Shown piece by piece: positions 5,285 through 7,588 of a DNA stretch of 63,636 bases; position 1 is the first letter of the stretch; every line of letters begins with the position of its first letter. This DNA is from Rheinheimera sp. A13L (GTDB lineage Bacteria; Pseudomonadota; Gammaproteobacteria; Enterobacterales; Alteromonadaceae): positions 1-63,636 of the forward strand of contig NZ_AFHI01000021.1 in assembly GCF_000217935.1 (NCBI RefSeq), given 5' to 3'. The notes below the pieces were generated by a model. The model was not told the DNA's origin and searched no databases. It saw only the letters and a list, made by a program, of their open reading frames with translations. The position numbers were made by a program, and so were the translations under genes.

Positions 5285-5684
5285 CAGATAACACCCCTAA
5301 AACATCGCGAGGTATTGCACTCGCTTTCATTAATGATAGTTTTACGCAGGCAATACTAACCTGCGCTGAACAAAGTAATTCTGCATCCGCGTTGTAGATT
5401 TCCTGCCAAAATACCAAACTGGCCTTTTTTAACTGTCTAATCTCACTTTTTACCAACAAAAGCTGATTAAACCTTCCCGGCTTATGGTTTTCCATCTGCA
5501 CACTTTTCACAACAAAACCAATATCCTGACGAAGCAACAAGTCTTGTTCGACACCTAAACTTCGAAGCCATTCTGTTCTGGCTCTTTCAAAGAATTTCAG
5601 ATAGTTAGCATAATATACTACGCCACCTGCATCGGTGTCTTCGTAATATACTCTGACCGGAAATTCAAACACCACAAGCTTCAT
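5259..5684 (-). CDS. ybgC: Acyl-CoA thioesterase YbgC
   Basis: A hot-dog-fold acyl-CoA thioesterase and first gene of the tol-pal operon. The 141-residue cytoplasmic protein has the family motif [17 protein letters not shown] near the N-terminus, whose second Asp (Asp18) is the usual catalytic residue, followed by FFERARTEW. The start ATG at 5684 is preceded by a good sigma-70 promoter. In enterobacteria ybgC is also co-transcribed with tolQRAB, probably for a role in phospholipid metabolism. The 3' end overlaps tolQ. Confidence 0.94.
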
Positions 5685-5740: not shown

Positions 5741-6057
5741 CAGGGCGAACCTGCTCAGCGCTAAATATTTTTATTCCGGAATTATTTCAGGGCCGTTAAA
5801 AAACCTCTGGTTCTGATATTCACGAAAAGTTTCGTCTTCGCGATGGATGGGGAAAAAACAGCGATTAATGGTTATTTTTCCGGTTCAAAAGTTTTTCATG
5901 TAAAAATTAGTAATTCCCAACAACTATTCAACTTATTCAGCCAAGCTTAATTTTCAAGGCCTTGGCAAGAGTCACCAGATAAATTTGATTAAAATTCACC
6001 CAAAGAAGATATTTATTCAGATTAGAAAAATTAATGTCAAATCTCAATTTTTCTAGT

Positions 6058-6093
6058 TTGAAGTAAATGCACTAACTCCCTAAAATGCCTCCG
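6058..6093 (+). promoter_or_regulatory. rRNA P1-like promoter
   Basis: TTGAAG (6058-6063) and TAAAAT (6081-6086) are 17 bases apart. The stretch AACTCCCTAAAATGCCTCC closely resembles the core of E. coli rrn P1 promoters, with a GC-rich discriminator before the expected start at about 6093. An AT-rich block upstream (about 6015-6055) could serve as an UP element. No protein gene follows. It reads into the candidate RNA described next. Confidence 0.6.
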
Positions 6094-6265
6094 TGTTCTG
6101 AGCTAGCGCAAAAGTTCCGGCCTTGTGCCCTAACTTTAGTGATGAATACTGGTGATGTGATTATCTGTTCGAAGATGATTATGTTGCTTCTCAACATGTT
6201 CCCTGGATTTTGAAGATTTACTTCAACTTGTTGCATTCGCCCGCTAATTTAGCGGGCTTTTTTTT
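6093..6265 (+). ncRNA. Candidate small structured RNA, unknown family
   Basis: A transcript of about 173 bases is predicted between an rRNA-P1-like promoter and a strong terminator, with no credible reading frame. Foldable elements are visible in order: a 5' stem (GCGCAA with TTGTGC, about 6105-6127), ATGTTG/CAACAT (6181-6197), TTGAAG/CTTCAA (6210-6226), and the terminator hairpin (6239-6257). I do not recognise it as 6S, tmRNA, RNase P, Spot 42, GcvB or a CsrB-like RNA. An alternative is the leader-and-tail remnant of a deleted rRNA operon. Confidence 0.5.
6239..6265 (+). terminator. Strong terminator of the candidate RNA
   Basis: A 7-bp stem GCCCGCT/AGCGGGC (6239-6245 with 6251-6257) with a 5-base loop is followed directly by eight T (6258-6265). 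It is in plus orientation, although both neighbouring genes are on the minus strand, which supports an independent transcript ending here. Confidence 0.85.
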
Positions 6266-6289
6266 ACATTTTGCTGTCCTGCAAAATGC

Positions 6290-6560
6290 CCGGTCGGGCC
6301 ACCGTCGCTTCGCTCCTGTGTTAAAAATCGCTCCAGACGATTTTTTCGCCGCCATCCATAGCGCCATTCAGCACGTGGCCTGCACTGTTCAAAAAACAGC
6401 AGGATAGCTGTTTTTCACAGCTTTAGCTGCCGAAGGCGAACATCAGGGACGATGTGAGTGAAATTCGTTCCTGACGAATTTACTCGGGCTATCCTTGCCC
6501 TCGCCTTATCAGGCAAGCTGAAGCTGTTCAAAATCGCTCCCGGCGATTTTGTGTGTCCAA
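6290..6560. repeat. Cluster of three related hairpin repeats
   Basis: Three short inverted repeats share one design, a 7-8-bp AT-rich stem ending in CG and a 7-base loop: 6323-6345 (loop CTCCAGA), 6461-6481 (loop TTCCTGA) and 6529-6551 (loop CTCCCGG). The first is flanked by GGGCCACCGTCGCTTCGC and GCCGCCATCC, which recur with changes in the two 61-bp repeats at the far end of the window. This looks like a dispersed intergenic repeat family that fills the gap before ruvB. The region has no gene. Confidence 0.65.
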
Positions 6561-6577
6561 TGAGAAGGAATACTTAC

Positions 6578-7588
6578 TTAATTCGATTCTGGTAAATCAA
6601 AGCCAAAGTGTTTGTAAGCAGCGGGGGAGACGATGCGGCCTCGTGGCGTGCGCTGGATAAAACCTTGTTGAATTAAAAAAGGCTCTATTACATCTTCAAT
6701 GGTTTCTTTCTCTTCGCCTATAGCGGCCGCCAGGTTATCCAGCCCTACAGGCCCACCACCGAATTTTTCGATGATAGCCAGCATTAACTTGCGGTCCATA
6801 TAATCAAAACCACTGGCGTCAACGTCTACCATATGCAATGCAGCAGAGGCTATTTCCACTGGTACCAGACCATTGGATTTGACCTGAGCAAAATCTCTGA
6901 CTCTTCGCAGCAGACGGTTGGCAATACGAGGTGTGCCACGGGAGCGCCTGGCTATTTCTGTCGCTGCAGGCAGTTCAAGTTCTAAATTCAGATAGTGCGC
7001 TGAACGTAAAATAATTTGTGCCAGCTCATCCACCTTATAAAATTCCAGTCGCTGCACTATACCAAAGCGGTCACGTAGTGGCGAGGTTAAAGCACCGGCT
7101 CTGGTGGTTGCACCTATTAAGGTAAAAGGCGGTAATTCGAGCTTGATAGAACGGGCAGCTGGCCCCTCGCCTATCATGATATCCAGCTGATAGTCTTCCA
7201 TTGCCGGATATAAAATCTCTTCCACTACAGGACTTAGACGATGAATTTCATCGATAAACAGTACATCGTTGGGTTCCAGATTGGTCAGAAGCGCTGCTAG
7301 ATCACCGGCTTTTTCCAGCACGGGACCAGAGGTGTTTTTAATATTCACGCCCATTTCATTGGCGACCACCATAGCCAGTGTGGTTTTACCCAGACCAGGC
7401 GGTCCGAAAATCAGCAAATGATCCAAAGGTTCCCCACGACCGCGGGCTGCTTCGATAAAAATGGCCATCTGCTCTTTGACATGAGACTGCCCGGTATAAT
7501 CCGCCAATGACTTGGGACGGATGGCGCGGTCAATCAGCTCATCTTCACGACTGGCTTTGGTATCGATCAGACGATCGGCTTCTATCAT
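6578..7588 (-). CDS. ruvB: Holliday junction branch migration ATPase RuvB
   Basis: The hexameric AAA+ motor that drives Holliday junction migration with RuvA. The 336-residue protein shows Walker [10 protein letters not shown] (about 65-73), Walker B DEIH (about 117-120), sensor motifs GATTRAG and SPLRDRFG with the arginine finger region, and a C-terminal winged helix (about 260-336, RTPRGR). It lies 23 bases after ruvA, last in the yebC-ruvC-ruvA-ruvB cluster. Confidence 0.98.

Follow-up and report, generated by a model that had tools for sequence, protein, structure and literature searches.

A small RNA gene conserved in the Alteromonadaceae, with a GcvA-type site upstream and a probable GcvB-like role

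The analysed stretch of DNA, here called the window, is 63,636 nucleotides in length and comes from Rheinheimera sp. A13L (contig NZ_AFHI01000021.1, positions 1 to 63,636). Positions 6093–6265 of the window are an sRNA gene that is conserved in the family Alteromonadaceae and is absent from Rfam at the cut-off; that the conserved gene is real is very likely. We think it fairly probable that the gene product is a GcvA-activated, glycine-responsive and trans-acting sRNA, which fills the role of GcvB in the Alteromonadaceae. Judging by the sites upstream of its promoter, the sRNA is likely under the control of GcvA; by analogy, the balance tips towards GcvB-like work. If this is true, it names an sRNA family that occurs in most sampled genera of a big aquatic bacterial family and was missed by Rfam, and its signal (glycine, GcvA) is testable. 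The GcvA/GcvB circuit would then have been rewired, with the same regulator and promoter geometry but another locus and another pairing sequence, and what holds sRNA regulons in place during evolution would become directly testable.

A conserved unit between ybgC and ruvB

The unit is located in a gap between minus-strand genes, as the earlier note on this DNA had stated. On one side, ybgC (minus strand) starts at 5684, and tolQ is located farther out; on the other side is ruvB (minus, 6578–7588). Based on their translations, we take these genes to be ybgC, tolQ and ruvB. The gap contains a sigma-70 type promoter, TTGAAG-17-TAAAAT (6058–6086, plus strand), and one intrinsic terminator, GCCCGCTAATTTAGCGGGC-TTTTTTTT with 8 T (6239–6265, plus strand), which was recognized by the scan and in the alignment of the relatives; both are present as described before. 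The small RNA (6093–6265, plus strand) is ~173 nt in length; its start would be at 6093, owing to the promoter position and the point where conservation begins. Covariance model R1 gives it 192 bits in the window, the window sequence being among those used to build the model. In the consensus scans, neither the promoter (2 matches versus 1.7 in shuffles) nor the terminator (1 match versus 1.0 in shuffles) is better than chance; it is the conservation that places the unit far above chance. The −35 element is of TTG type in 38 of 39 promoter regions, all promoter-region counts being based on 39 of the 49 family promoter regions.

One proposal of the earlier note was a small, structured RNA that has a promoter and a terminator to itself, and this is supported by the fold and by conservation in the relatives. 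The fold of the whole RNA is −50.9 kcal/mol, with z of −4.06 versus shuffles; when the terminator is left out, z is −2.53. The statement that there is no reading frame is nearly right. One nominal plus-strand ORF of 42 codons does exist (6085–6213), but it begins before the point where the RNA is expected to start, and its region is broken by indels in the relatives, as judged from the 25-sequence alignment.

Dispersed repeats are present between the terminator and ruvB (6259–6577). Segments of 29–32 nt from 6259–6290 recur on two contigs of the same genome, C17 (four copies, three of them 81 bp apart) and C49; three 26-nt copies are located within 6319–6550.

The alignment in related genomes suggested by the earlier note showed that the unit is both conserved and syntenic. 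With 6040–6268 as query, blastn matched 31 of 60 genomes. These are the own genome, the 21 other members of its genus, every one of which matched, and nine more; several of these nine matches outside the genus are terminators only. At E ≤ 0.01, the covariance model (25 sequences) matched 233 of 295 family genomes and 48 of 52 genera, and gave no match in the other 62 genomes. RuvB and TolQ are on opposite sides of the sRNA in 35 of the 40 loci that were fetched, and at least one of RuvB, YbgC and TolQ is present in 38; none of the three was found at L073 and L092. An exact scan with the 19-letter 5′ motif identified 46 loci, which belong to Rheinheimera, Arsukibacterium, Alishewanella, Alkalimonas and Gammaproteobacteria MAGs; this count and those of the family genomes are not independent, because several genomes are common to both sets. 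All 46 loci contain the 11-letter seed TGTTCCCTGGA, 45 have RuvB, and all 46 have a terminator-like end, by a loose criterion for which a run of T is enough. The unit was also found in the single-contig genomes G015 and G021.

The Rfam covariance search, likewise suggested before, was run and left the sRNA place with no Rfam family at the cut-off. In the window, only five tRNAs are above the gathering score, and in the gap nothing comes near any cut-off; for 20 loci of other genera, no family reaches the gathering score. Our literature searches (sRNA with the ruvB/ybgC intergenic region), which mostly covered sources open without subscription, retrieved no published account of this RNA. Searches for GcvB with Alteromonadales or Rheinheimera retrieved none either, and no GcvB was among the matches listed in broader searches.

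Outside the family, covariance model R1 has matches at E ≤ 0.001 in 35 genomes of the order. From these, 19 places in 19 genomes were fetched, together with one blastn place. Among the 20 loci, only L111 (genome G378) adjoins RuvB/YbgC/TolQ; its 10/10 palindrome is 112 nt upstream of where the model begins. Of the remaining 19, most are apparently terminator matches; these places were rejected. Eight of the fetched loci (family f6: L107, L108, L109, L113, L114, L117, L118 and L126) have another leader, common to all of them, with a GCCTGCTC terminator stem and no Rfam match; no GcvA-type site of ≥9/10 is present within 500 nt upstream. In the three f6 loci that were read over their full length, the leader contains, by eye, one small ORF (MSYTG..WQNTWF..), and in two of these three it is located upstream of a permease-like gene.

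One of the readings offered earlier was the scar of a lost rRNA operon, to which an assembly collapse may be added. Although it is rated 100% complete, the own assembly has no 16S rRNA gene, so the near relative G015 was used for the rRNA comparison. Upstream of two of its four 16S operons is the core AACTCCCTATAATGC, which differs from that of the window at 2 of 16 positions; the comparison with rrn leaders proposed by the earlier note thus matched the P1-like core. In the span compared, namely the four 16S genes of G015 and 1.5 kb on each side of them, no 14-mer is in common with the unit. The window contains no Rfam rRNA match, and no rRNA sequence follows the core there. A search with the promoter-core 19-mer found no match in the genome contigs searched, and the plasmid search was likewise empty. 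The P1-like core is all that speaks for a scar or collapse. Given the conservation and synteny across the family, with the single-contig genomes G015 and G021 included, that reading falls, and we consider it vanishingly improbable.

Structure of the RNA and proposed pairing stretches

The 5′ domain (6093–6149, plus strand) contains the conserved GTGTTCTGAGCTAGCGC, one closing stem (GUGUUC/GAAUAC) and one inner hairpin; it appears in the folds and forms a near-invariant block in the alignment. It is followed by one long central hairpin of 16 bp (6151–6188, plus strand), in which the letters vary and the pairing is kept through compensatory changes. Further downstream is ACATGTTCCCTGGA (6194–6207, plus strand), the putative main seed. 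One small hairpin, TTGAAG-ATTTA-CTTCAA (6210–6226, plus strand), is present in the folds, and the alignment shows the conserved CAACTTGTTGCA (6224–6235, plus strand), which may be a short, GU-rich second pairing site. Near-invariant in the 25-sequence alignment are the 5′-terminal GTGTTCTGAGCTAGCGC, CATGTTCCCTGGA (24 of 25 sequences), TCAACTTGTTG and the terminator.

The central stem covaries. In eight clade-B sequences, 94 of the 104 cells are paired, with UA/GC, AU/GC and UA/AU exchanges, and a single constant G-G mismatch accounts for eight of the ten unpaired cells. The count includes eight of the nine clade-B sequences, L028 being omitted owing to its different register; clade A was folded only. 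The RNAalifold consensus missed the central hairpin, with a covariation term of only −0.35, and it has the flanks of the seed paired.

We infer the seed function of ACATGTTCCCTGGA from its conservation and from unpaired probabilities. Only 20 of the 49 family sequences have the exact 11-mer TGTTCCCTGGA; the others have variants, such as GTTTCCTGGAA. In the 20 exact sequences, mean unpaired probabilities are 0.70 to 0.96 for the UCCCU core and 0.15 to 0.56 for its flanks; the core is thus mostly free, whereas pairing often involves the flanks. The complement of the seed, TCCAGGGAACATG, looks like an SD sequence plus a start codon. When at most one mismatch is allowed, four genomes have 13 sites for the seed complement outside the sRNAs, versus 18 for the reversed control; there is no excess. 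In the own genome, one site with one mismatch is 19 nt upstream of the start of a gene that we take to be DsbA-like (L212, 1501–1512; own contig C71:178242), and it may be a target.

The neighbours of the sRNA are fixed and the RNA runs toward the 3′ end of ruvB, which would suit a leader or antisense element that acts in cis on ruvB or ybgC. However, the unit has its own promoter and its own terminator, the terminator is ~310 nt before the ruvB end, and on this contig the seed complement has no second site, even with one mismatch allowed. Action in cis is, in our opinion, very unlikely.

GcvA-type sites upstream of the sRNA and of gcvA

One GcvA-type inverted repeat, IR1 (ATTAGAAAAATTAAT; 6021–6035, plus strand), matches ATTAG-N5-CTAAT at 9 of 10 positions, and its centre is at −65 from 6093. 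One AT block (AATTTTTCTAG; 6046–6056, plus strand) has its centre at −42; from its position, it is probably IR2, the second GcvA site, or a UP element. The UP-like AT block of the earlier note is present; together with the sequence that precedes it, it falls on the GcvA repeats, the probable one centred at −42 and IR1 at −65. In the 39 promoter regions, the −50 to −35 stretch has a mean A+T content of 77%. In PMC5002191, ATTAG-N5-CTAAT is the GcvA motif of the gcvA-gcvB region, where −65 is the position given for IR1 and −43 that for IR2. We checked the E. coli gcvB sequence, in which the motif centre is also at −65.

The motif upstream of the sRNA was counted in 24 hand-chosen genomes of 21 genera, four of them from the own genus. 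It is present at 9 or 10/10 in 20 genomes and at 8/10 in the other four; in the base-shuffled control, 1.3% reached ≥9/10 and 17% reached ≥8/10. The IR1 of GcvB has its counterpart at −65 in the window, and at ≥9/10 in those 20 genomes; IR2 is represented by the AT block at −42 alone. In 20 of the 24 genomes, the motif centre is 63–66 nt before the model start; it is at other distances in G069, G378, G032 and G174, probably because the left end of the model is not the RNA start there. Among the 19-letter-motif loci, the GcvA-type site is 65–67 nt before the motif, with ≥8/10 in all 45 loci that have enough upstream sequence and ≥9/10 in 30 of the 45.

GcvA protein was found in all 24 genomes. 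Within 200 nt upstream of gcvA, the motif is present at 9 or 10/10 in 19 genomes (base-shuffled control, 2.2%), and the site is only 6/10 in G003, G013 and G087. Two of the four own-genus genomes (G003 and G013) are among these, and a third has 8; the gcvA site is thus not always kept within the own genus. The own GcvA scores 461 bits with NCBIfam GcvA (cut-off 288) and shares 68% identity with E. coli GcvA over 299 aa. Just upstream of the own gcvA is one 15-mer identical to IR1 of the sRNA, and one 10/10 site is located 226 nt upstream of the own gcvT. When the own genome was searched with one C of the motif relaxed to Y, the motif had 20 strand-matches at 15 places versus 15 for the reversed control, and several of the places sit inside genes. 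Since these counts are barely above the control, motif presence alone is weak evidence, and it is the locations that carry weight.

Two more GcvA-type repeats, 195 bp apart, were noticed in the gap between two other genes of the own genome, which we take from their translations to be yebG-like and katG-like (L143 and L144, each near its position 1501; C56:84939 and C56:85134 of the own genome).

These sites also bear on the proposal that the unit is a growth-rate controlled sRNA with a promoter of rrn-P1 type, the palindrome then serving another LysR-type regulator. The likeness to rrn P1 is real: the AACTCCCTAxAATGC core is present in the window and in two operons of the near relative G015, at the 2/16 distance given above. 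It is not kept in the family, however. AACTCCC occurs in only 2 of 39 family promoter regions, and four of the 39, the window included, are within three mismatches of the 16-mer core, whereas the palindrome is widely kept. Moreover, the palindrome is the published GcvA motif and recurs at gcvA and gcvT. Growth-rate control through an rrn-P1-type promoter is not a conserved feature of this unit, and we consider such a role unlikely, though growth-rate or ppGpp control may still act on it.

In the mechanism we prefer, GcvA, a regulator of LysR type, would occupy the repeat centred at −65 as well as another site around −42, and would activate the sRNA when glycine is plentiful, as for E. coli gcvB. 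The transcript would fold into the 5′ domain and the variable central hairpin, ending at the U8 terminator. The UUCCCUGGA stretch, and perhaps CUUGUUG too, would pair with the ribosome-binding sites of target mRNAs. Hfq is probably involved, and the targets are probably amino-acid or peptide uptake genes. Transcription, GcvA binding, the glycine response, Hfq, the seed and the targets are all predictions from sequence. According to PMC3879156 and PMC3658693, the targets of GcvB are uptake genes.

Comparison with GcvB and other small RNAs

GcvB of E. coli and its relatives (RF00022) and the window sRNA belong to the same size class, and both have the GcvA repeat at −65, a second site near −43 (a probable one in the window sRNA), a sigma-70 promoter and a rho-independent terminator. 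RF00022, with its gathering score of 42 bits, gives the window stretch 19.5 bits, and in the own genome the sRNA place is absent from its matches up to E of 10. No GcvB is over the cut-off in the own genome, nor in any of 40 family genomes; in the order, RF00022 is over the cut-off in 57 of 247 genomes, none of them from this family. Among 20 fetched RF00022 places of the order, 13 have an adjoining GcvA (48–76% identity), six have no GcvA, and L169 has a distant LysR protein only. The own gcvA is 98 bp from the next upstream ORF, which is on the same strand, and is not divergent from the sRNA.

With a GcvA-type site at the same distance as in E. coli, the sRNA might be a true GcvB orthologue, which moved from gcvA to the tol-pal/ruvB gap and diverged beyond RF00022. 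The UCUGAGC near the 5′ end is common to the sRNA and the canonical GcvB L163, and E. coli GcvB has CCUGAGC; by eye, the CCTGT...CCCTG order resembles the 3′ part of GcvB in several genera. RF00022 has a match of some kind in 38 of 40 family genomes, and among the matches listed, at E ≤ 1, it marks the sRNA place in at least 6 of the 40. Among the matches listed for each genome, the one at the sRNA ranks first in G146, G180, G029 and G032, second in G072 and fifth in G022. However, RF00022 is never over the cut-off at the sRNA, and the likenesses are short. The R1 14-mer, AUGUUGUGUUUGCA, is exact in 12 of 14 canonical GcvBs (1 and 3 mismatches in the other two), whereas in the 49 sRNAs the best match has 3 mismatches (one sequence), 4 (five) or ≥5 (43). 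One profile of the 14 canonical GcvBs scored 0 of the 49 sRNA bodies, with some match in 81 of 1960 shuffled bodies, and E. coli gcvB gives no match with covariance model R1. Taken together, we hold the orthologue to be a doubtful reading, though not a far-fetched one. The other way to the same circuit is non-homologous replacement, in which GcvA and its site were kept in the Alteromonadaceae while the RNA was exchanged for one of no kinship to GcvB, which pairs through a different sequence and so has a different regulon; we propose this tentatively, as somewhat short of an even chance.

ArcZ and SdsR of E. coli have the letters UUCCCUGG or UUCCCUGGA in common with the window sRNA, and these shared seed letters gave the lead that the sRNA could be one of them. 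Both are at other loci, and their regulators differ from GcvA. The lead was dropped, because covariance model R1 finds neither.

Compared to these, the likeness to GcvB is in control. GcvB has the R1 element and its locus is beside gcvA; the window sRNA is without R1, has the conserved UUCCCUGGA stretch instead, and is located between tol-pal and ruvB. As the R1 element, the RF00022 score and the gcvA neighbourhood all differ, we class the sRNA as GcvB-like in control and not as a GcvB member. Acting from the tol-pal/ruvB gap, and with another pairing sequence, this RNA would work as GcvB does.
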